In this document: positions 1 to 14,866 of the stretch, piece by piece
Position numbering within the stretch: the stretch's first letter is position 1
Layout of the letters: every line of letters starts with the position of its first letter
Origin: a virus
DNA: 25,689 bases
Direction: 5' to 3' (one strand)
IMG/VR virus record: IMGVR_UViG_3300009621_000016
Location: 1-25,689 of that record
Notes under the pieces: generated by a model
What the model saw: only the letters and a program-made list of their open reading frames with translations
Told to the model about the DNA's origin: nothing
The model's database searches: none
Made by a program: the position numbers and the translations under genes

Positions 1-13
1 GGGATTTGAGTAG
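1..13 (+). CDS. possible 3' end of an upstream gene (partial)
   Basis: The second forward frame reads Gly-Phe-Glu and then TAG at 11-13, leaving a 38-base gap that holds the strong ribosome-binding site of the next gene. TAG is the preferred stop of this genome and same-strand genes are closely spaced, so this is plausibly the tail of an upstream virion gene, a tail sheath by synteny. Only three codons are visible, so no function can be read. Confidence 0.3.
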
Positions 14-51
14 GATGCCGCCCGTATAGGTCGGCTTTCAGGAGGAAGACA

Positions 52-744
52 ATGGCGCAGGGTGGTTACATCTATCAGCAGGGGGCGAGCCCCCAGACGG
101 AAGCCGTCATCAGCTCCCGCTTCAAGATTTTCACCGACGTCGTGGGCGTCGGGAAGTTCGTGAAGCTGGGCGTGACGTCCTCCTTCCAGATTTCCGAGAC
201 GCGCACGGTCGAGGCCATCCGCGGGCTAGGCTACGGCGATCAGATCGCCGAGCTGGTGCCCGGCGTCACCGAGCCGCTGAGCATCACCATCCAGCGCACG
301 TGCCTCTACCTGGCCAACATCATGCAGGTGCTGGGCTACAAGGCGGGCGTGAGCGGCGGCGTACGCTCCATCCGCCACCACAGGTGGCCCTTCGACATCA
401 AGACCGAGATCGTGTTCAGCCAGCTCGCCTCCGAGGATCCCGCCAACGCGGCCGGGACGGGCGGGGGGACCCCCGACCTTACCAAGGCCGACATCCCGAA
501 CGAGGGCGGCCTCAACAACCTCGGCAACCCGGGCCTGTTCGCCGTGGCCACAGTGTACGAGGGTTGCTGGATCAGCAACTATACGACGGGGTACGCCATC
601 GAGACCGCCGCCGTGAACGAGAACGTCACCGTGTCGGTGACGGACATCTTCGACGTGTCCGGCACGGTCTACGGCGAGTTCCTGGACAGCGGCATGAACG
701 CTGGCGACGCCACCGGGCGCAGCCTGCTGTACTCGATTTCGTAG
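52..744 (+). CDS. putative phage tail tube protein
   Basis: A 230-residue protein with no signal peptide or membrane segment, rich in beta-prone stretches, Gly, Thr and Val. This is the look of a virion building block. The start is fixed by an AGGAGGAAG Shine-Dalgarno site 4 bases before ATG. Residues about 45-100 (around SETRTVEAIRGLGYGDQIAE and the following SITIQRTCLYL) resemble tail-tube proteins of contractile-tailed phages, where such subunits stack into hexameric rings inside the sheath. The assignment rests on size, composition and position upstream of the head genes. It could instead be another small virion protein. It ends 94 bases before a convergent minus-strand gene. Confidence 0.5.
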   Translation: MAQGGYIYQQGASPQTEAVISSRFKIFTDVVGVGKFVKLGVTSSFQISETRTVEAIRGLGYGDQIAELVPGVTEPLSITIQRTCLYLANIMQVLGYKAGVSGGVRSIRHHRWPFDIKTEIVFSQLASEDPANAAGTGGGTPDLTKADIPNEGGLNNLGNPGLFAVATVYEGCWISNYTTGYAIETAAVNENVTVSVTDIFDVSGTVYGEFLDSGMNAGDATGRSLLYSIS

Positions 745-770
745 AGACGGGCCTTTAGTCAAGGACGGGA

Positions 771-785
771 CGGGCACATGGCCCG
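771..785. terminator. short GC hairpin after the tail-tube gene
   Basis: CGGGC-ACATG-GCCCG forms a 5-bp stem with a 5-base loop, 27 bases after the stop of the tail-tube gene. No T-tract follows directly, so it is at best a weak terminator or an mRNA 3'-end structure between two convergent genes. Confidence 0.35.
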
Positions 786-802
786 CATCCTGTTGTGTCG
801 TT

Positions 803-846
803 CCATTCTTAGCCTATTCTGTTGTACCATTTTTAGCTTATTGTGT
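803..846. repeat. imperfect 20-bp tandem repeat, AT-rich
   Basis: Two copies of CCATTYTTAGCYTATTSTGT lie at 803-822 and 827-846, with three mismatches and a period of 24 bases. They sit in an AT-rich patch in otherwise GC-rich DNA. The second copy overlaps the last codons of the minus-strand gene ending at 838. It may be a protein-binding site, a recombination junction of the inserted cassette, or part of a termination region. Confidence 0.6.
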
Positions 847-1206
847 CGAGGTCATGAGCATCTTGTATCTCTTCGACGGATGCTTGGTGAGGAACCCCGT
901 CCTCCTCCCCTTCTCGTAGGGAATGCGCTCGTCCTTCCACTGCCCCGCCGTGGGGTCGGCTATACTTCCGTCGTCCCTGGCCAGGAACCAGTGGGTCCAT
1001 CCCGGGCCGCTCAGGACCACCAGGACGTATCCCCTTTGCCTTCCCCATATGTGGAACAGGGTTTCGGCGGCAAGATAGCAGTGCCCGAAGGTGAAGTGGT
1101 CGCCCGGCTTCCTTTTCTCCAGCCATTCCGGGCTCATCAGGTCGTCCGACAGGGCTTCCTGGACGGCCCGCATGGCGCTTTTCTTGGTCAGGTCCCGTGT
1201 GCTCAT
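838..1206 (-). CDS. small protein with Cys-His-Asp arrangement (unknown function)
   Basis: A 122-residue protein transcribed against the virion genes on both sides. Conserved-looking motifs are GHCYLAAETLFHIWG (Cys43), GWTHWFL (His72) and IADPTAGQW (Asp84), followed by YEKGRRTGFLTKHPSKR. The order Cys, His, Asp at the start of a helix and on two strands is that of papain- and transglutaminase-fold proteins, so a cysteine hydrolase-like or amidase-like fold is possible, but I do not recognise a named family. Only a weak GATGAG ribosome site precedes ATG at 1206. It faces the start of the 1280 gene across a region with an inverted repeat, and it looks like an inserted accessory gene. Confidence 0.7.
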   Translation of the reverse strand: MSTRDLTKKSAMRAVQEALSDDLMSPEWLEKRKPGDHFTFGHCYLAAETLFHIWGRQRGYVLVVLSGPGWTHWFLARDDGSIADPTAGQWKDERIPYEKGRRTGFLTKHPSKRYKMLMTSTQ

Positions 1207-1211
1207 GGGCT

Positions 1212-1260
1212 CATCGGATGCAATACCGGTTTTTCGTCAGAAATCCGTGTCTATCCGATG
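1212..1260. promoter_or_regulatory. inverted repeat in divergent intergenic region
   Basis: The 8-bp arms CATCGGAT (1212-1219) and ATCCGATG (1253-1260) are exact inverted copies 33 bases apart. They lie between the start of the minus-strand gene (1206) and the plus-strand gene (1280). GGTTTTTCG at 1228-1236 lies inside the interval. The location suits an operator serving divergent promoters. No clear -35/-10 pair is visible. Confidence 0.4.
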
Positions 1261-1279
1261 CTTTATGTGAAAGGCGAAT

Positions 1280-4200
1280 ATGGCTTCCAGCTCTCTCTTG
1301 CTCAAGAAGTCCGCTTTGCTCCCAGTTCCCGGAATCGGGGAAGGGGTGGGGGGCATCGACCTCGTCACCAAGGAAAACCTCATAGACGACCCGGGGTACG
1401 CCGCTCACCAGCACCATGCCGACCCGGAGTACGACATGCCGTTCGGCCAGAAGGGGACGGAGGTGGAGGGCACCAAGCACGGATCCGCCAAGCACGCCGA
1501 CTCCTCCGTCTGCGTCTGCGGGCACATGTGGCACGAGCACTGGGACAAGGGGGACTTCGGCTGCAAGAGCGAAGGACGCGGCTGCGAATGCAAGGGATTC
1601 AAGGCGAAGGCGGCCTCCCGGCCCTCGGAGCCGTCCTACAGGGCGGCCGAGGTCCTTGCCCATTTCGGCAGGATACGGAAGGGGAGCATCCGCAGGACGG
1701 CGCTGGCCCTCGACCGCATGGCTGCCGAGGACGCCAGGGATTTCGCCCATGAGCCCGTCGAGGAGTTTACCAAGAGGGTGACGCCCGTCAGCCCGCTCCT
1801 CAAGGAGCCGGACCCCGAGACCGCCACGTTCTTCAAGGAGAGCGAGGAGGGCACCGAACGGGGCGGGGACGCCCCGCCCAGCGCCGACCCGGACCTGGTT
1901 GCCTACATAAAAAGCAAGGGCATGGACCCTCGCTGGATTCCGGTCGAGCGCCTGCCCGGCAAGCGGATGAAGGACTACCCCATAACCAGGGCGATCCTGG
2001 AATGGGAGAAGTCGACGGGGAAGCATTTCGGGGACCCCTCCCTGACCGATGCCGAACGGGAAAGGCTGACGAAATGGGGCGGGGGGAAGAAAGAAAAGGT
2101 AGATACCATTTCTTTCCAGGAAACGGAGGATTGGGGTATCGTTCCCCTGGACGAGGACATCGGCGTCGCCTTCGACAGGGAGGAGCTCAGGGAGGCGATA
2201 AGAGGAGTCCTGGGCACGCTGACCCCTCGCGAGCAGAAAGTCATCGAAAGGCGGTTCAACCTGGACGGAAGGGGCGGGGCCACCCCTGAGGAAATAGGGA
2301 ATGAGTTTGCGGTTAACAGGGAGCGGATACGCCAGATCGAGGCAAAGGCCCTGCGCAAGCTGCGCCATCCCTCCAGGAGCAGGCGCTTGCGCCCGTTCGT
2401 CTCGGCCCTCCTCAAAAAGGCGGAATGGGATAGTAGACAGGCCGCCGAGGCCATAGGAAAGGTGTTCGTCGGCGAGTGGAACGACATCCCGGACGACGTC
2501 ATTGAGGAGGCTGCCAAGATGGCATCCGGCATCTTGGGGACGGCCTACATATTCTTTTCGCCCGAGGGGGCAAGGAACATTCGGTCGCAAAATGCTGGGT
2601 GGTCCGTAGGCAGCAAGTCGGTTCCCCTACAAGAAGGATCTAAACTGGTGGCAATGGTGGGCACCCCAAAGCCCAAGCAGGCCACCACGAAGTCCTACGG
2701 CGCTGGCACTCCCATCGGCGGGACGGCGAACGGCGTGGGGCAGCCCGCGCCCGGCGACCAGCCCACCCACCCCGCTTCGTTCCAGCAGCCCGCCCAGCAG
2801 CCAGCCCAACAGAGTGCCCAGCACCCAGCCGGGCCCGTGCAGCAGGAACAGCAGCAAACGCAGCAGCAAGGGCGGCAGGGGCGGCCCTACCAACGAGGCC
2901 AGTCCCTGTCGGTCGATCCCAATGCCCCGCCTGGCGTTCCGCAGAACGTCGCCGACCAGGACAGCATGGTCAGCGAGATAGTCAGGCAGCTCCAGGAGAA
3001 GATGTCGGCCCTAGAGTCGAAGGTGGAAATCCACGAGTCACCCGACCTGCTGCCGCCCCGCACCGAGCTCAGGAAGCACCTCGACCCGTCGCTCGTGGAC
3101 GAGGAGGACAGGATTCCCATCCCGGTGAGCAAGGGGGCGGGCAGCGCCGAGGAGGACGACGAGGACGACGAGGACGACAGGGGGCCGATACCCGACCTCG
3201 GCACCCTGTACGGGAGGCCGATAGAAAAGACGGATTTCCCGGCTCCTTCCGGACCGCAGGTGCATTGCCCCGTTTGCTGGCAGAACCAGACGGATTGGAC
3301 GGACGATGAGATTCGGCGGCATGCCCAGAGTTGTGGGAAGGCCTCGGGGCCGTCCGGGGGTGGGGAGCTTAATGACCTCGTGGAGAGGGGCACCCACGAC
3401 CGGTGCCAGGAGCCGGGATGCGGGGCGATAATAAGCAAGCTGTATATGAAAGACCACATGCGGACCTTCCATCCCCATGCCGACCCGGCGTCGTACCTGG
3501 ACCTCACCGACGAGGACAGGAGGTTCCTCCAGGAGATGAGGATACGGGGGGCCAAGAAGGCCTCCGACTGGGATCCCATCGGGGCGAAGAAGCAGTACGA
3601 CGAGGCATGCAGGCTGTGGGACGAGGGCAGGCAGAACGATGCGACGGAGGCGCTGCGCTCCTCCGTCCGCTCCAACCCCTACCACGGGCCCGCCCACTTC
3701 AGGCTCGGGGTGGCCCTCGCCCATGAGGGGAACGAGGAGGAGGCGCTCGCCGAGCTGGGGCTGGCGCTCAAGGCAAGGCCCAGGAACACGTGGGCCTACC
3801 ATACCATCGTGGCGGAGATGGACAAGAAGGGCGACCTGGACGGGCTGCCGCAGTCCGTGAGGAAGTTCATCGGGGACAATATGGTCTCCAAGCAGGCGGG
3901 AGGGGGGCCGACCAAGCGCTGCGGGCCCATCATCATCGATCAGAATGGGTGGCTTACCCCGGAAGGCGACTTCGTTCCCGTAGCAGTGGACAAAAGCCAC
4001 CTTGAAGAAGGCTTCGAATCGGCGGTCCGGGTCATTTGCACTCCGCCTTTCGTCGCCTTCGACATCCAAGTAGACTCCCCGAGAGTTCGGGAAGTGGTCA
4101 AGGAGGCCTTGCGCAACAACCCAGGGCTGCAAACCGTGGAAATCGAGATTCAGGGGGTCGAGTTCGAGGACAAGCTCAATCCGGAACAAGCCGAGGAACT

Positions 4201-4387
4201 CCTGGACAGCTACCGCTGGAGGCCCGAGTACCGAAAGAAAAGCAAGGTCGCCGTCCAGACCGAGGAAGGGGTCAACGAGGTGTGCCCGAACTGCCATGGC
4301 CAGAAGACCAAGCCCGTCGACGACCCGGAGGTGGAGGGCGGAAACCTAGTGGAATGCCTGACTTGCGGGGCATTCTTCGCCAAGTAG
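1280..4387 (+). CDS. giant multidomain virion-operon protein with sigma-70 region 4, zinc-binding modules and TPR
   Basis: A 1035-residue protein. In order: a CxCGH...CxC zinc-binding segment (Cys78, Cys80, His82, His87, Cys95, Cys102, Cys104); a complete sigma-70 region 4 at about 290-373, starting [13 protein letters not shown] (314) with the recognition helix [20 protein letters not shown]; a Gln/Pro-rich linker (about 465-560); a predicted coiled coil and an EDDEDDEDD acid run; two C2H2-like fingers (Cys663, Cys666, His681, Cys685 and Cys709, Cys714, His726, His731); a TPR-like helical repeat (about 770-857); and a C-terminal zinc ribbon (Cys1002, Cys1005, Cys1026, Cys1029). Region 4 binds the promoter -35 element and the RNA polymerase flap in bacterial sigma factors. 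The position between tail-tube and protease genes suggests a structural or virion-associated protein, but a regulator of late transcription is equally possible. Start: GAAAGGCG precedes ATG 1280. Confidence 0.8.
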
Positions 4388-4424
4388 GGATCACGGCGGC
4401 TACGCAAGCTTATATTAGGGAACC

Positions 4425-5327
4425 ATGTCGTTCAAGAAGATAGCCCAGGCCGTGCTTTTCGAGCCTACGATGACTTCCTGCGACTGGGGGAGGATGTGGG
4501 GGGATCGCGCCTTCCGCGGGTGCGCCGTCGACAGGGCGCATCCCTTCTGCAAGACCGCGGCCGACCACACCAAGTACCTGCTCAGCCATTGCACCATTAT
4601 GAGCTCGGTGGCCTGCGAGTCCGAGCCCAACGACTACCTGATCCGCCCCGCGTCGGCGCATCTCGTTAACAACAACGACGATGCATGGGAGAATTCCGTC
4701 CTCAAGCTGTCCCACAAGAGCTTCGTGGGGGCATTCAACTTCGTCGAGCACTTCCAGAACAGCAAGTATGCGAAGGGGCACGTCATCGACAGCATCCTCC
4801 GCAAGATACACCTCACCCAGGACCCCCGGGACGACGTTTTCTTCGTCGACATCCTCGTGGCGACGGACCTCTCGCACCACAAGCTTGCCGACGACATAAG
4901 GAGCAGGAAGGTCAAGTACCTGTCGATGGGGTGCGTCACCGACCTCGTCATATGCTCCTTCTGCGGGCAGCACGTCACGGACGCGAGCAGCTACTGCCAC
5001 CACCTCCAGTTCAACAAGGGCACGTTCCTGCCGGACGACGACGGGGTGCCGCGCCGCGTGGCGGAGCTCTGCGGGCACAGGACCCTCCCCGGAGGGGGGG
5101 TGAAGTTCGTGGAGGCCAGCTGGGTGCAGACCCCGGCGTTCCCGGGGGCGATGCAGAGGTCCATAGTGGCGGACGAGTGGCTGGGCCCCGCCACCCGCTT
5201 CACGAGCAGGGTCGAGGCCTCGGGAAAAGAGGCGTTCTCCAAGGCGGCCTCGGAAAGTGGCGACTATTCAAGTCCTTATTTGGGGGAGCTGTTGCTCTCA
5301 AGTGACGACGGAAGGAACCTAAGGTAA
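4425..5327 (+). CDS. prohead maturation protease
   Basis: A 300-residue serine protease of the phage prohead type, which cleaves scaffold and capsid precursors inside the immature head. His109 in FNFVEHFQN and Ser167 in KVKYLSMGC are the likely catalytic pair. Their 58-residue spacing and the hydrophobic strand between them (FFVDILVATDL) match herpes-protease-fold prohead proteases such as T4 gp21. A CxxC...CHH cluster follows the serine (Cys177, Cys180, Cys191, His192, His193) and may bind zinc, as seen in some large-phage relatives. The gene lies directly before the scaffold-like gene, its TAA overlapping the next ATG by one base (TAATG), which implies translational coupling. AGGGAACC precedes the start. 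Confidence 0.8.
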   Translation: MSFKKIAQAVLFEPTMTSCDWGRMWGDRAFRGCAVDRAHPFCKTAADHTKYLLSHCTIMSSVACESEPNDYLIRPASAHLVNNNDDAWENSVLKLSHKSFVGAFNFVEHFQNSKYAKGHVIDSILRKIHLTQDPRDDVFFVDILVATDLSHHKLADDIRSRKVKYLSMGCVTDLVICSFCGQHVTDASSYCHHLQFNKGTFLPDDDGVPRRVAELCGHRTLPGGGVKFVEASWVQTPAFPGAMQRSIVADEWLGPATRFTSRVEASGKEAFSKAASESGDYSSPYLGELLLSSDDGRNLR

Positions 5328-8397: not shown

Positions 8398-9399
8398 ATG
8401 GCAAACCTCAGCCGCACACAGCAGCAGACCGCTATGATCGGTCAGTTGCTGAAGACCGCAGGAGGCCGCCAGAAGCTGGCCGCCTCGCTCGGACCGTCTC
8501 TCCGCAGGCGGCGTGACTACATGAGCATCGCACGCAAGGCGCTCATGGTCGAAACGCTGCCGGACGGCGCTCTGCCCATCTACGACAAGGAATTCGACAC
8601 CGCGGCCCAGACCGTGGGCTCCACCCCCGGTGGGTCCTTCGTCGAAGCCTTCGTCGTGGGCGAGGAGGGCGGGGATATCGTCAGGGTCACCAAGCCCAAG
8701 AGGGTCACGGTGCCCACTTTCGAAATCGTTTCCAACCCGATGATCCCGATCTCCCAGATCAAGGAGCGTCGGTTCGATTTGGTCGCCCGTGCCCTTAACC
8801 TGGCGAAGGCCGAGGTTGGGGCCGCCGAGGACGGCTACGTGTTCGGCTTGTTCGACGCCGTAGCAGCCTCCGCGAACACGGCAGTGGCCGCGGACAACCA
8901 AGCGAGGAGTGGAAGCGGCACGTTCGACCCCATCTACAACGGCGACATCGCCATCAACGCCCCCATCGACCTCAACTCGATGGCGGACGGCTTCGGGCAG
9001 GTGCAACGGCACGACCTCTCGGTCGCGTTCTGCTTCTTCAACCCGAGGGACTACGTCGACCTGCTCAAATGGACCCAGCAGAATATTGACAGGGAAACCC
9101 AGCGCAAACTGCTCAAAACAGGAGTGATGGGCTATCTGTGGGGGGCCACGCTCCTCCAGTCCCGTAAGGTCGGTTACGGCTGCGTGTACATCCTGGCGGA
9201 CGCCGAGTTCCTGGGCGTCATCCCGGAGCGCATCCCGCTGACCGTCATGTCCGCCGACCGTCCCGACCTGCGCCAGATCGGCTTCTCGATCTTCGAGAAC
9301 CTCGGCTTCCTGGTCTTCAACCCGTCAGGCGTCCAGCGCCTGACCATCAACGGCAGGTACGAAGCGTTCGTCGCCAACCAGAACGTCGGCGAGAACTAG
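8398..9399 (+). CDS. major capsid protein (HK97-fold type)
   Basis: A 333-residue protein that forms the head shell. Evidence: position after protease, scaffold-like and decoration genes; a basic helical N-terminus (about 1-45, RRRRDYMSIARKALM) resembling the N-arm or delta domain; an E-loop-like beta region (about 75-125, VTKPKRVTVPTFEIVSNPMI); a long spine helix area (RRFDLVARALNLAKAEVGAAED); and a C-terminal P/A-domain-like stretch (YILADAEFLGVIPERIPLTV, then GFSIFENLGFLVFNPSGVQRLTI) of the type found in myovirus capsid proteins. It has an excellent ribosome site (AAGGAGAATCACC) and a perfect terminator directly downstream, as expected for a highly expressed gene. Cleavage by the 4425-5327 protease is possible; no site is evident. 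Confidence 0.85.
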   Translation: MANLSRTQQQTAMIGQLLKTAGGRQKLAASLGPSLRRRRDYMSIARKALMVETLPDGALPIYDKEFDTAAQTVGSTPGGSFVEAFVVGEEGGDIVRVTKPKRVTVPTFEIVSNPMIPISQIKERRFDLVARALNLAKAEVGAAEDGYVFGLFDAVAASANTAVAADNQARSGSGTFDPIYNGDIAINAPIDLNSMADGFGQVQRHDLSVAFCFFNPRDYVDLLKWTQQNIDRETQRKLLKTGVMGYLWGATLLQSRKVGYGCVYILADAEFLGVIPERIPLTVMSADRPDLRQIGFSIFENLGFLVFNPSGVQRLTINGRYEAFVANQNVGEN

Positions 9400-10709: not shown

Positions 10710-10721
10710 TTGAGGGAGTCT

Positions 10722-12488
10722 ATGGCCTTTTCCCGCCCGCCGACAGTCATGTACCACGGCACTTCCGTACGTTCCTGGGAGCGGCATATCCCCGAAGGCA
10801 CCTTGTTCCTTACCTCCAATTCCGAGGAGGCCCTTTATTTTGCGCTCGAAACCGCAAGGCATGACGAACACGAAGGGCGGAAGCCCGAGCCCATCGTGCT
10901 CGAAATCAAGTTTTCCGACCTAAGGGCCGGATCGGTCACACTCGAACCCGACTGGCTGGCCTACAACGAGACCGAGGAATCCCCCGACAATCCGACATGG
11001 GAAGACACCCTGAGCAAGTTTGGCACGTTTGCCATAAGCGGGAACGTCGAGGAATTGAAGGAGAAATTCAGGGTCGTAGAAAGGCCGGACTTTCGTAAGA
11101 TGGGCTCCAGGATATGGGTCACCATACCGGTCCTGGTCCTCCGCCCGCCCTACACCAAGGTGGCGATCAGCCTCCCCGAGCTCATCCGGCAAACCAACGC
11201 GTTCTCGGTCAAGCGGCGGGCGGGATGCAATCCCACCCTCAAGAAGTCCCGGCCCAAGGACCTTTATTTGGAGTACAAGGTCGTCTGTCATGAGAACTAC
11301 AGCGACCCCGCCGGGCACGACGTGCAGGTGCAGTTCGACCTCTCGCAGGTCGAGAAGACCCAGGACGCCAAGCGCCTCGACGTCCGGTGCTCGTGCAGTT
11401 GCCCCGCCTTCCTCTACTGGGGGGCGCAGTGGAACCTCCACCAGCGGGACGGGCTCCAGGGGCAGCCGCGCCCCCTCCTCCAGGCCCCGACGCAGAGGCT
11501 GGATCTGCGGAACAACTTCGTCATCTGTAAGCACGTCAAGGCGGTGTTCGAGCGCATCCTGCCGGCCGTGCAACACAACATCGTCAACATCGTCAGGGAG
11601 CGCGAGGTGCGCCAGCAGAGGGAGCGCATGGAGCAGAAGCCCCCGACCGAGAAGGGCAAGCGCCTGAAGGAGAGGCAGGAGGAGCTCTGGAGGAAGAAGC
11701 AGATAGAGAAGATCGTCAGGACCAAGGACGAGGAGAAGCAGAAGGCGATGATCGACGAGCTGGTCGAGAGGGAGGGCAAGCGCCTCCAGGAGGAGGAGGC
11801 CCCCCCTGTCCCGCCAGCCCCGGCCCCCGCGCCCCCTCCGGCGACCCCCGCACCCGCGCCTGCGCCCCCGGCAGCCGGGCCGGAGGAGGCAAAGGTCATC
11901 AAGAGGGACGAGCCCGCCACGGCAAGGCCTCCCGCCCCCCCTCCGGCACCCGCCGCACCGGCCCAGCCGAGCCTGCGCGACCTGGTCAGGCGGGAGGAAA
12001 GGAAGCTGCAGAAGGGCAAGAAGCCAGGATACCGCTACGTCTGCCCCTACGACGGGTTCAGGACGAACCTCCCCTGGAAGTTCAAGGAGCACCAGGAGGC
12101 CCACGCCCCCCGAAAGGCGTCCTCCCGGGCCCCGGCAGGGGTCGGGGCACGGGAAAGGCTCAAGAATAGGCGTACGAGCTTGGAGGCGTCGCTGGTAGGC
12201 ATCGTGGGGGCCTCCTCGTCGGGGAAGGACGCCATGGGCACCCCGCAGGAGGTCGCCGACCTCATGGAGCGCCGCTCGTTCCAGGAAGAGGCCAGGCACG
12301 ACGACTATGCCATCTATTCCCGGCACGACGGGAAGATTTCCCTCACGGTGAGGTTCGAGGGCGGGAAGGTGAGGGACTCCACCCTGACGCTGATGTCGGG
12401 GGAGCGGGGCGAGGACCGCAAGGAGAGCGCCACCACCGAGGAAGGATTCGAGGGGGTCTGGCACGCCGCCCAGGCCTACGGGGACTAA
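10722..12488 (+). CDS. ADP-ribosyltransferase-like / SWIM zinc-finger fusion protein
   Basis: 588 residues. N-terminal region 8-115 has the outline of an ADP-ribosyltransferase fold: YHGTS (11-15), TSNSEEALYFAL (31-42), then IVLEIKFSDL (58-67), as in small ART-like phage domains that transfer ADP-ribose from NAD. The usual catalytic Glu is not certain. A SWIM zinc finger follows: CSCSCPAFLYWG (Cys225, Cys227) with CKH (Cys269, His271), giving CxC...CxH, a nucleic-acid- or protein-binding module. Next come a long charged coiled coil (288-360), a Pro/Ala linker (361-417) and a degenerate C2H2 finger (Cys441, His457, His461; second Cys absent). The C-terminal 90 residues are unknown. It is large, modular and in the virion operon, so it could be an injected effector. 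GAGGGAG precedes ATG 10722. Confidence 0.7.
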   Translation: MAFSRPPTVMYHGTSVRSWERHIPEGTLFLTSNSEEALYFALETARHDEHEGRKPEPIVLEIKFSDLRAGSVTLEPDWLAYNETEESPDNPTWEDTLSKFGTFAISGNVEELKEKFRVVERPDFRKMGSRIWVTIPVLVLRPPYTKVAISLPELIRQTNAFSVKRRAGCNPTLKKSRPKDLYLEYKVVCHENYSDPAGHDVQVQFDLSQVEKTQDAKRLDVRCSCSCPAFLYWGAQWNLHQRDGLQGQPRPLLQAPTQRLDLRNNFVICKHVKAVFERILPAVQHNIVNIVREREVRQQRERMEQKPPTEKGKRLKERQEELWRKKQIEKIVRTKDEEKQKAMIDELVEREGKRLQEEEAPPVPPAPAPAPPPATPAPAPAPPAAGPEEAKVIKRDEPATARPPAPPPAPAAPAQPSLRDLVRREERKLQKGKKPGYRYVCPYDGFRTNLPWKFKEHQEAHAPRKASSRAPAGVGARERLKNRRTSLEASLVGIVGASSSGKDAMGTPQEVADLMERRSFQEEARHDDYAIYSRHDGKISLTVRFEGGKVRDSTLTLMSGERGEDRKESATTEEGFEGVWHAAQAYGD

Positions 12489-12492
12489 GTAG

Positions 12493-12783
12493 ATGATAAC
12501 CGTGCAGACCAACGGGCCGTACCCCAACCGCATACAGCTCCTCCTGGGGGACTGGGTGGGCCCGCTCGTCCGCCCCACGAGCCCGCCTGAGGCGTTCGAC
12601 CCGTCCGTGGACCTGGAGGTGTACGTGGACGGGCTCCCCGTCCCCGTCTCCGCCTGGTTCTTCGACAGGATAAACAACCGGTACCTCCTGTTCACGGACA
12701 GGCCGATAAACCTCCGGGGGGTAATCCAGGTCATCCACCACATGCCGGACCCGCCGTTCCAGTATGGCGTGGCGATAGGGTAG
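12493..12783 (+). CDS. small unknown virion-operon protein
   Basis: A 96-residue beta-rich protein without Cys clusters, signal peptide or membrane segment. It begins 4 bases after the stop of the ART/SWIM gene and ends 7 bases before the Ig-repeat gene, so the three are likely co-translated. Its pattern of short strands (LEVYVDGLPVPVSAWFFDR...NNRYLLFTDRP) recalls small adaptor or baseplate-like domains that decorate a larger virion protein. I recognise no family. Confidence 0.7.
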   Translation: MITVQTNGPYPNRIQLLLGDWVGPLVRPTSPPEAFDPSVDLEVYVDGLPVPVSAWFFDRINNRYLLFTDRPINLRGVIQVIHHMPDPPFQYGVAIG

Positions 12784-12790
12784 GGGGGAT

Positions 12791-14866
12791 ATGCTGGCAT
12801 CCATCGTACAACAGGCATACTACAGGCTCGGAGTTCCCGACACTTCCTCGTCCGGCGTCGTGATGGGGGCGGGCAACTTCACCTTTACGACCTCGGGCTC
12901 CGTCGCCTACGTGCCCGGCCAATGGGTGCGGATGAGCCTTGCCGCCGACTCCAGCATCTACATGGACGGCATCGTGACGGCCTACTCCGCGGGAAGCCTT
13001 TCGATCAGCGTCCCCAACTATCCCATCGTCGCCGTCGACGTGGGGGCCAAGACCTTCACCATAACGGGCGACTGCGTCGACTATCTCGCCTCCGTCAACG
13101 CCTATGCACAGGGCGGCGAGGCCTTCACCATCGACGGCGGCCCGAACCATGGATACCAAGTCGCGAAATCGGCGGCATTTTCGGGCGGCCAGACCATCGT
13201 AACAGTAGGCAACACCCCAGGCAGCGGGTTGAGCGGCGGGGTAATCCAGACCTTTAGCGGCAGCGGGATTCAGACCGGATGGAACATCCTCACCCTGACC
13301 GCCACGCTGAACCTGCCCTCCGCCCCCACGCCGGGCAACGACCTGCTGCTCATCGTCGAGGGCAGGTATGCGGGCGACGGAAGCGGCGGGTTGCCGCTCT
13401 ATGGCTACACGACCCTCACCGGCCTCCAGGCGTCGATGCCCCCGTTCAGCAACGTCAAATCCTTCACCACCGACACCCCGACGGGGGCCTGGTTCGGCAG
13501 GCGCACCGTGCAGCCGGGGGACGGGGCCGCCTACACGGTCTCGATCCGCAACACGGGGGAGGAGCCCGAGGTCCAGACCACCCACATCCTGATCCTGGAG
13601 ATAGCGAACGTCGTCGCGGCCTCGGCCCAAGTGCTGTACGAGCTGGGAAGCTACGGCTCGACGGACGCCTCCGGGGCGAGCCAGGGCACCAGCGACGTCC
13701 GGATCGTCTGCGCCCTGACGGGCGACGGCGCTACGATTGTCCTCTCCGGGACCGGGTACTCGCCCCTGCGGTACGTCTACGACAGGGCCGTGCCCGGCTC
13801 CTTCCTGTGCAGCGTCGGGATCGCCCACGCCACCGATGGGCAGGCCCCCTTCACGATGACCTTCGGGGACGCCCCGGTCCACGGGGGGGAGAACACGCAG
13901 ACGGGCTATCAGGCGTGGATAGCGGAATACCTCGCCAAGACCCCCACGACCACGACGGTCGGCACCAGCCAAACCCCGTCCCTAGACGGGCACAGCGTCA
14001 CCCTCACCGTGACGGTCGCCGGTAGCGGCGGCCCCCCCACCGGGACGGTGACGCTGACCGACAGCCTCGGCAGCATCGCGCCGCAGACCCTCAGCCTCGT
14101 GGGCGGGGTCGCAACCTACAGCACGAGCGCCCTGTCCATCGGCATCCATACCATGGGCGCGGCCTACAACGGCGACGGCGCGTTCGCCACAAGCTCGGGA
14201 AACGTGGTGCAGGAAGTGGACAGCCTGTACCCCACGTTCCTTGCCATAAGCAGCGACTACAACCCCCAGTTCTTCGGGGACGAGGTCACCCTCACCTTTG
14301 CCGTCACGTCGTCGTCCGGCGTGCCGGCCGGCACCGTGGACGTTTCCGACAGCATAATGGGGGACCTCGGGCCGTTCCCCCTGATCGACGGCGTCGTCGC
14401 GCTCGTCATGGACATGGCGCACCCCTGGGCGGTGGACAGCCACCTCTTCGCCGCCGTCTATGGCGGGGACGGCACCCATGCCGGAAGCAGTTCCGGCCTC
14501 GTGCAGCTCATCCTTACGGCGAGCGGGCTCTTCCCGCTGGACCTGCCGGGCTTTGCGGTCATGGCGTCCTACGACGAGGAGGGCGACGTAAACCTCCCTC
14601 CATGGGCGAGCTTCTCCGCCGTCCCCTCCATGGCCAGCCCGCTCCAGCCGGTGTACGTCCTCTGGACCAGCGTCAACGTGGCCAAGGTCCGCATATCCGG
14701 CACGAACGGCATCGACACCCTGGATACGGGCAACCTTTTCACCACGGGGTCCGGGACCTACGAGGTGGCGTCCGGCTTCCACGACACGATAACCCTGAAT
14801 TGCGCCGCCTACGACTCGTCGGGGAACGCCGTGGCCACGCAAAGCCTGCAAGTGACGGTGGCATAG
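12791..14866 (+). CDS. large Ig-like-repeat virion surface protein (putative fiber/adhesin)
   Basis: 691 residues, Gly/Thr/Ser/Val-rich, no signal peptide. About 1-380 is beta-rich with Gly-Thr turns. Two bacterial Ig-like repeats of the Big_3_5 type follow (about 383-474 and 477-578), recognisable by TVTLTDSLG, the closing AYNGDG and AVYGGDG loops, and the preceding IG-H and V-S strands. A third, more divergent Ig-like domain closes the protein (about 592-691, PPWASFSAVPS...LQVTVA). Such repeats in tailed phages sit on head fibers, tails or adhesins and give weak binding to cell surfaces or mucus-like polymers. GGGGGAT precedes ATG 12791. The role is inferred from domain content and location. 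Confidence 0.7.
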   Translation: MLASIVQQAYYRLGVPDTSSSGVVMGAGNFTFTTSGSVAYVPGQWVRMSLAADSSIYMDGIVTAYSAGSLSISVPNYPIVAVDVGAKTFTITGDCVDYLASVNAYAQGGEAFTIDGGPNHGYQVAKSAAFSGGQTIVTVGNTPGSGLSGGVIQTFSGSGIQTGWNILTLTATLNLPSAPTPGNDLLLIVEGRYAGDGSGGLPLYGYTTLTGLQASMPPFSNVKSFTTDTPTGAWFGRRTVQPGDGAAYTVSIRNTGEEPEVQTTHILILEIANVVAASAQVLYELGSYGSTDASGASQGTSDVRIVCALTGDGATIVLSGTGYSPLRYVYDRAVPGSFLCSVGIAHATDGQAPFTMTFGDAPVHGGENTQTGYQAWIAEYLAKTPTTTTVGTSQTPSLDGHSVTLTVTVAGSGGPPTGTVTLTDSLGSIAPQTLSLVGGVATYSTSALSIGIHTMGAAYNGDGAFATSSGNVVQEVDSLYPTFLAISSDYNPQFFGDEVTLTFAVTSSSGVPAGTVDVSDSIMGDLGPFPLIDGVVALVMDMAHPWAVDSHLFAAVYGGDGTHAGSSSGLVQLILTASGLFPLDLPGFAVMASYDEEGDVNLPPWASFSAVPSMASPLQPVYVLWTSVNVAKVRISGTNGIDTLDTGNLFTTGSGTYEVASGFHDTITLNCAAYDSSGNAVATQSLQVTVA

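Follow-up and report, generated by a model that had tools for sequence, protein, structure and literature searches.

An RpoD-type sigma region 4 within a size-variable head-operon protein of a giant soil phage

In phage T4, the genes of the core and internal head proteins adjoin that of the head protease, and one of these proteins, Alt, is a packaged ADP-ribosyltransferase. According to PMC5694885, it is within the prohead that gp22, gp67, gp68, Alt and the internal proteins (IPs), all proteins of the core, come together with the protease; the internal proteins use a targeting sequence. In the sections of PMC2988020 drawn on here, domain 4 of sigma and T4 gp33 are both described as binding the tip of the RNA polymerase beta flap, and gp33 as having no discernible sequence similarity to sigma. 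A further point of comparison is Tunturi_5, introduced in the relevant part of PMC11924767 as a 309-kb myovirus of an acidobacterium, Tunturiibacter. Here we analysed the IMG/VR record IMGVR_UViG_3300009621_000016 (25,689 nt, hereafter the window), which is itself contained in a 157-kb contig (G001) of a giant soil phage, and in which an open reading frame (ORF) at 1280-4387 on the + strand encodes a protein of 1035 aa (P0001) that carries a sigma region 4 (r4).

A sequence-only reading of the window had proposed that region 4 of a bacterial RpoD is embedded in this virion-operon protein, and a profile search against the sigma-70 region 4 families bore this out. The Pfam model PF04545 (Sigma70_r4) matched residues 310-363 (2207-2368, + strand) with an E-value of 1.6e-15 and 56.8 bits vs. 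a cut-off of 24.1, and was covered over its whole length (profile positions 1-50 of 50). NCBIfam RpoD models matched residues 300-374 with a best E-value of 4.6e-28, and the PHROG family 'RNA polymerase sigma factor' matched at 1.7e-20. Using phmmer against the PDB, r4 matched 67 sequences at E <= 0.001, the best being SigA (4e-23), and every one of the 60 best of these 67 was named a sigma factor or a sigma-beta chimera. A non-sigma helix-turn-helix identity, which the sequence-only reading had itself raised, was rejected by the Pfam, PHROG, NCBIfam and PDB matches. Judged by these matches and by alignment to RpoDs, residues about 297-375 (2168-2404, + strand) constitute a genuine sigma region 4 of the RpoD type, with nothing out of the ordinary about the domain itself.

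The reading frame was uninterrupted for 1035 codons, and its sequence at 1280-4387 was identical in the window and in two further contigs, although the three assemblies are perhaps not independent samples. One of them (L003) was identical to the window across 12,384 compared bases, and the other (L002) differed from it at 4 bases, 0 of them inside 1280-4387. Because the three contigs agree across the gene, a frameshift or an assembly fusion, the other source of error that had been envisaged for P0001, is unlikely.

The conservation of r4 was assessed against 30 RpoDs, taken as the best-scoring sequences from 149 acidobacterial genomes by means of an RpoD model and not chosen by the phage peptides. 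Across 76 residues r4 was 55-64% identical to these proteins, and the RpoDs averaged 83% among themselves. Within residues 297-375, 43 columns were invariant among the 30 RpoDs and r4 retained 34 of them, with 19/19 retained in the recognition segment at residues 347-371 (2318-2392, + strand) and 15/24 elsewhere (Fisher p 0.0025, a guide only, as the segment was delimited after the alignment was seen). The RERIRQ motif was located at residues 347-352, just where the sequence-only reading had placed it, and R347, E348 and Q352 are the counterparts of R584, E585 and Q589 of E. coli RpoD, the residues that touch the -35 element there. By this alignment r4 has diverged and its DNA-reading face has been retained. 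Among the genome matches listed for r4, those of Acidobacteria/Terriglobia were the best, at 68% (L091-L093), and clostridial, deltaproteobacterial and other RpoDs gave 60-69%; given these values, and given that peptides of the phage itself served as seeds of the scan, r4 is not assignable to a particular donor.

As the sequence-only reading had stated, region 2 is absent from P0001, in which PF04542 (sigma region 2) had no match at E <= 0.1. The likeness of the preceding segment to the end of region 3 was not confirmed: the 14 best NCBIfam matches started at residues 297-303, and the region 3.2 finger was not found, since residues 276-291 lack 8 positions at which 80 RpoDs show 99-100% conservation. 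By these comparisons P0001 is not a sigma factor.

We next considered how common such an arrangement is. Across all of IMG/VR, 443 contig stretches encoded an r4 relative, and among the best 80 of the 443, the residues downstream of region 4 numbered <= 11 in 78 and 660 in both copies of P0001. Among 50 related records, PF04545 scored above the cut-off in three, two of this species (G001 and G002) and G020, in which the 266-aa ORF also contained region 2; among 24 further related records it did so in one (G051), in a 210-aa ORF that likewise held region 2. Chassis proteins, as we call P0001 and its homologues, carried PF04545 above the cut-off only in the contigs of this phage species among the related records scanned, and r4 as a fixed feature of the family was rejected. 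In terms of domain content, r4 is one of several differing inserts in a size-variable family. Because r4 within a chassis is limited to this species and, among those 80, only its copies continue for long past region 4, we take it to be one recent or rare capture. The limited set of literature searched contained no description of region 4 within a protein of a virion operon; packaged internal head proteins are known, as are phage proteins that act where sigma-4 binds, and what is new is to find region 4 as exchangeable cargo in a head-operon protein whose size varies. Short ORFs that end in region 4, with no evident region 2 by motif pattern only, were also seen on unrelated virus contigs (L184 3972-4637, L191 3462-4277 and L208 7854-8234), and viruses may have captured region 4 more than once.

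The chassis family was collected through two scans of IMG/VR with the major head protein, which gave 153 and 160 relatives, the best 80 of each being kept. In these retained relatives, jumbo phages related to Tunturi_5 and phage G, a chassis homologue was encoded just ahead of the head maturation protease, save where contigs end. Six short landmarks were mapped over 43 chassis proteins, which are non-independent (32 representatives at 50% shared 5-mers), using landmark models derived from the very proteins that they map. In P0001, where six of six were present, they are TE (residues 33-67, within 1280-1480), FFKE (residues 174-193, 1799-1858), TKSYG (residues 467-488, 2678-2743), IHETP/LPPR (residues 578-622, 3011-3145), TLYG (residues 630-650, 3167-3229) and the C-terminal zinc ribbon (CZn; residues 989-1035, 4244-4384), all on the + strand, and TE falls within an N-terminal tag of residues 1-67 (1280-1480, + strand), a signature by pattern that runs from ..SLLLKK.. 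to ..KGTEVE. The 43 proteins included 41 with IHETP, 35 with TE, 33 with TKSYG, 31 with the C-terminal zinc ribbon, 30 with FFKE and 19 with TLYG. Taking the first match of each, the order was violated in 0 of the 42 proteins with any landmark (42/42 in order), and the gaps between successive neighbours spanned 12-402, 0-617, 12-1061, 0-129 and 93-535 residues. Shuffled proteins gave no landmark match (0/215), and 4,034 ORFs outside the set gave two for TE, seven for IHETP, two for CZn and 0 for the others, which by inspection were additional tag-bearing ORFs or pieces.

Complete chassis proteins ranged from 169 aa (Tunturi_5 ORF330) up to 1952 aa (L305), and one of 214 aa (L266) had the TE and IHETP tags alone. 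The chassis gene ended between -60 and +100 nt from the protease start in 32/40 loci and 622-1450 nt from it in the remaining 8; that of P0001 ended 38 nt ahead. The description of P0001 as zinc-rich held for the C-terminal ribbon, whose cysteines (Cys 1002, 1005, 1026 and 1029) were nearly invariant in 24 relatives; a further finger at residues 656-685 fell below the Pfam cut-off. In one relative (L010) the chassis was broken into two ORFs, 1444-3594 (716 aa) and 3558-4205 (215 aa), corresponding to a single 920-aa ORF in L011.

Between the landmarks lie modules that differ from protein to protein. The gap of 273 residues between FFKE and TKSYG in P0001 contained r4 between module A (residues 187-248, 1838-2023, + strand; 43.5% identity to residues 526-587 of the L024 chassis) and module B (residues about 396-460, 2465-2659, + strand; with a relative in L032 from residue 483), and L024 and L032 had A or B without r4. 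A module at residues 884-976 (3929-4207, + strand) was 60% identical to residues 213-304 of the L268 chassis, which precede the TE tag; because the counterpart occupies a different slot, modules move between slots. Among 22 'different slot' alignments, two were counted as real relocations (P0001/L268 and L267/L268) and the rest span a landmark. Helical repeats of TPR type were found at residues 773-845 (3596-3814, + strand), where TPR_16 matched at 1.3e-06, below the Pfam cut-off, and AlphaFold2 (AF2) and PDB folds agreed. The AF2 prediction of P0001 had a mean predicted local distance difference test (pLDDT) score of 51.3 and yielded the TPR (pLDDT ~95), a helical pair at 117-156 and, besides the C-terminal ribbon, a finger near 660-690; a PDB structure search with the model returned TPR folds alone (Z 12.1, root-mean-square deviation 4.6, 100 aligned).

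By Pfam, the first set of 24 chassis proteins contained TPR in 10/24, region 4 in 1/24 and GNAT in 1/24, and GNAT was also detected in the chassis of L267 and L269. A module common to six loci (L052, L055, L291, L296, L303 and L305) had a predicted fold (mean pLDDT 74.9) for which Foldseek gave 20 matches at E <= 0.001 (best E 1.4e-4, with a query-based TM-score of 0.56), to tRNA 2'-phosphotransferases, DarT and toxins that ADP-ribosylate their targets, and is referred to here as ADP-ribosyltransferase-like. Profile A2 gave 0 matches at E <= 0.01 among PDB sequences, and the tag-bearing ORFs of L263, L297 and L298 contained 0 Pfam families. The L055 protein (ORF 1-4701) has by eye the look of a nucleotidyltransferase near its C-terminal part, where no Pfam family matched. 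In a 485-kb phage (L181, LR745208), a 508-aa ORF (3534-5060) upstream of the head protease combined HAD_SAK (RNA-repair-type) with a topoisomerase IB core; it matched no landmark model and is a lead, not chassis evidence.

Taken together, we favour, at just short of an even chance, the interpretation that the chassis is a head-core protein that would be packaged with exchangeable cargo, and that its sigma-4 load would be aimed at host RNA polymerase or -35 DNA. The conserved tags (N-terminal, IHETP/LPPR and usually the C-terminal zinc ribbon) would hold exchangeable modules on flexible linkers, and in this phage one gap has taken up a region 4 that derives from the primary sigma factor of a bacterium. 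The chassis would be built into the prohead core beside the head protease, a location argued from the protease adjacency and the conserved N-terminal tag by analogy to T4, and would then be packaged and enter the cell with the DNA. There, r4 may engage the flap of the host's RNA polymerase, -35 DNA or both, and would either compete with the host's own sigma region 4 or hold the polymerase at -35 elements. Host polymerase is the likely target because a multisubunit RNA polymerase (beta-prime) gene was found in 0/24 related records (control positive 14/14); the single-subunit RNA polymerase model PF00940 also matched 0/24, but its control likewise matched nowhere, so that this result is uninformative. 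The sequence-only reading had suggested redirection of RNA polymerase to late promoters, sequestration of the flap or injection with the genome, and its interpretation as a whole is upheld in part: redirection to late promoters would require a region 2 partner, which was not found in the 157-kb and perhaps incomplete contig, and flap or -35 engagement, competition with host sigma, or virion delivery fit better.

The locus suggests, short of proof, that phages of this kind load one of their head genes with interchangeable cargo for taking over the host. A bolder extension, which we regard as doubtful, is that in the group of Tunturi_5 and phage G one head-core gene would serve as a plug-in rack, whose tags load it into the head and whose horizontally acquired effectors (sigma-4, ADP-ribosyltransferase-like, GNAT and perhaps topoisomerase/RNA-repair) would be delivered at ejection, and that here a captured piece of host sigma would seize host RNA polymerase before phage gene expression.

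Several observations weigh against the favoured interpretation. A region 4 without region 2 is unable to start transcription alone, and r4 has lost 9 invariant RpoD columns, 8 at residues 299-339 and one at 346. Structure prediction of the full protein, which had been proposed as a check, modelled the TPR, the helical pair, the finger and the ribbon, but r4 at a pLDDT of only 45-62, from an alignment without any other r4, so that the model is uninformative on the r4 fold. As r4 is known from one phage species only, its constraint by dN/dS (nonsynonymous to synonymous substitution ratio) is not measurable, and no virion proteomics was found for any chassis family member. Cleavage by the head protease was likewise without support. 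The chassis tags contain phi-x-E, but the FFKE, IHE, GTE and KSYG patterns occurred only in P0001 among 200 ORFs of G001, a looser phi-x-E-[ST]-P pattern occurred in 7 of the 200, including one of 727 aa, and GTxYG was also found in the 230-aa ORF besides P0001. Conserved phi-x-E-small sites were counted once in the protease, twice in the head protein and twice in the 230-aa family, and were absent from the 727-aa, 185-aa and 592-aa families. Because the tags are unshared and three families have no conserved phi-x-E, protease processing is unsupported, and the tags are not supported as protease sites.

The chassis might instead be a non-packaged or scaffold-like assembly protein with insertion-tolerant loops, in which r4 is a neutral recombination passenger without a role. 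This would suit the 623 of 1035 residues of P0001 that AF2 places below pLDDT 50, the chassis gaps of 0 to >1000 aa, the restriction of the r4 insert to one species and its lack in relatives whose head proteins are 91-93% identical; we nevertheless consider it unlikely, given that r4 is in frame and intact, that its recognition segment kept 19/19 invariant columns against 15/24 for the others, and that recognisable enzyme folds in the relatives' chassis would be odd for neutral filler. Retention of the DNA-recognition segment rather than the 4.1 half, together with several inserts of nucleic-acid-binding type (zinc ribbons and r4), would also agree with r4 being a DNA-binding or DNA-organising element in the head or in packaging instead of in transcription. 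However, general DNA condensation is unlikely to have drawn on a domain that reads a specific -35 sequence, and it is not obvious what the GNAT, TPR and ADP-ribosyltransferase-like modules would do in packaging, which makes this explanation improbable.

Alternatively, P0001 could be made late and form one part of a split sigma inside the infected cell, much as T4 gp33 does with gp55, alongside an undetected region-2-like phage protein, and a real sigma-4 would be capable of this. Yet PF04542 matched nothing in the 157-kb contig, though gp55-like proteins may escape the model and the contig may be incomplete; it was found in 2/24 related records, in both cases in a short, separate ORF that resembles a sigma factor and has region 4 as well, and the relatives manage without r4, so we hold such a role to be quite improbable. 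We give very little credence to r4 as a decoy titrating anti-sigma proteins, such as inhibitors that the host or a rival phage directs at region 4: in principle, a region 4 on its own could compete for whatever binds this domain, but no such partner was indicated at the locus, where no dedicated search was made. If the chassis is packaged, as in the interpretation we favour, its gaps would be a catalogue of giant-phage deliveries readable from sequence via the tags, and a region 4 without region 2 would, if that interpretation is true, show a fragment of the host transcription machinery turned against the host; the packaging question is amenable to direct test in the Tunturi_5 isolate, which has a short chassis.

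The genes around P0001 are those of a virion operon. On the + strand, a 230-aa protein (52-744), homologous to the 'virion structural protein' ORF329 of Tunturi_5, had no family match of its own in the searches run, and downstream follow the head maturation protease (4425-5327, 300 aa; phrog_18299, 6.6e-15), whose Tunturi_5 homologue is so annotated, and the major head protein (8398-9399, 333 aa; phrog_2522, 1.9e-41), which was 68.9% identical to that of Tunturi_5 and 34.3% to gp27 of phage G. Just 5' of the chassis gene, a 122-aa ORF lies antisense to the operon (838-1206, minus strand), with copies 50-59% identical in 9 relative loci and a weak match to YunG (0.014, below the cut-off). A 592-aa protein (10710-12488) has a 'YHGTS' start that recalls ADP-ribosyltransferase-like modules by eye and a SWIM zinc finger match below the cut-off (0.0028), and with relatives of 301 to 1291 aa it is a second size-variable protein in the operon. 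A tRNA-Gly (gcc) at 12536-12615 stands amid the virion genes and overlaps an ORF at 12493-12783, and a 691-aa protein (12791-14866) contains bacterial Ig-like domains (PF16640, 1.5e-21).

Compared with the systems described at the outset, r4 shares with region 4 of bacterial RpoD/SigA its homology across ~76 residues (55-64% to the 30 acidobacterial RpoDs) and an intact recognition segment, whereas P0001 is without region 2 or 3 and holds r4 internally, with 660 residues downstream in a protein of 1035 aa. The region-4-only ORFs (L184/L185, L191 and L208) have the same RpoD-type region 4 with no evident region 2 (motif pattern only), but are 126-271 aa long, carry region 4 at the C-terminus and have no chassis. 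By analogy with T4 gp33, r4 would sit on the polymerase where gp33 does, at the tip of the beta flap; gp33, the split-sigma partner of gp55, has 112 residues and no discernible sequence similarity to sigma, whereas the region 4 of P0001 is genuine and lies in a head-operon protein, and PF04542 revealed no gp55-like partner in G001. Tunturi_5 ORF330 (PP885688) is placed like the P0001 gene, with ORF329 on one side and the head maturation protease on the other, and matched the N-terminal tag model, but has only 169 aa, no r4 and an IHETP-like stretch that is seen by eye and gave no model match. Like the genes of the T4 prohead core and internal head proteins (gp67, gp68, IPs and Alt), the chassis gene adjoins the head protease, and its N-terminal tag followed by variable cargo may be analogous to the T4 capsid-targeting sequence as outlined in PMC5694885; no homology to the T4 proteins was found, no comparison aimed at it having been made, and in contrast to T4, a single chassis gene holds many differing modules, and their packaging and cleavage are putative here.
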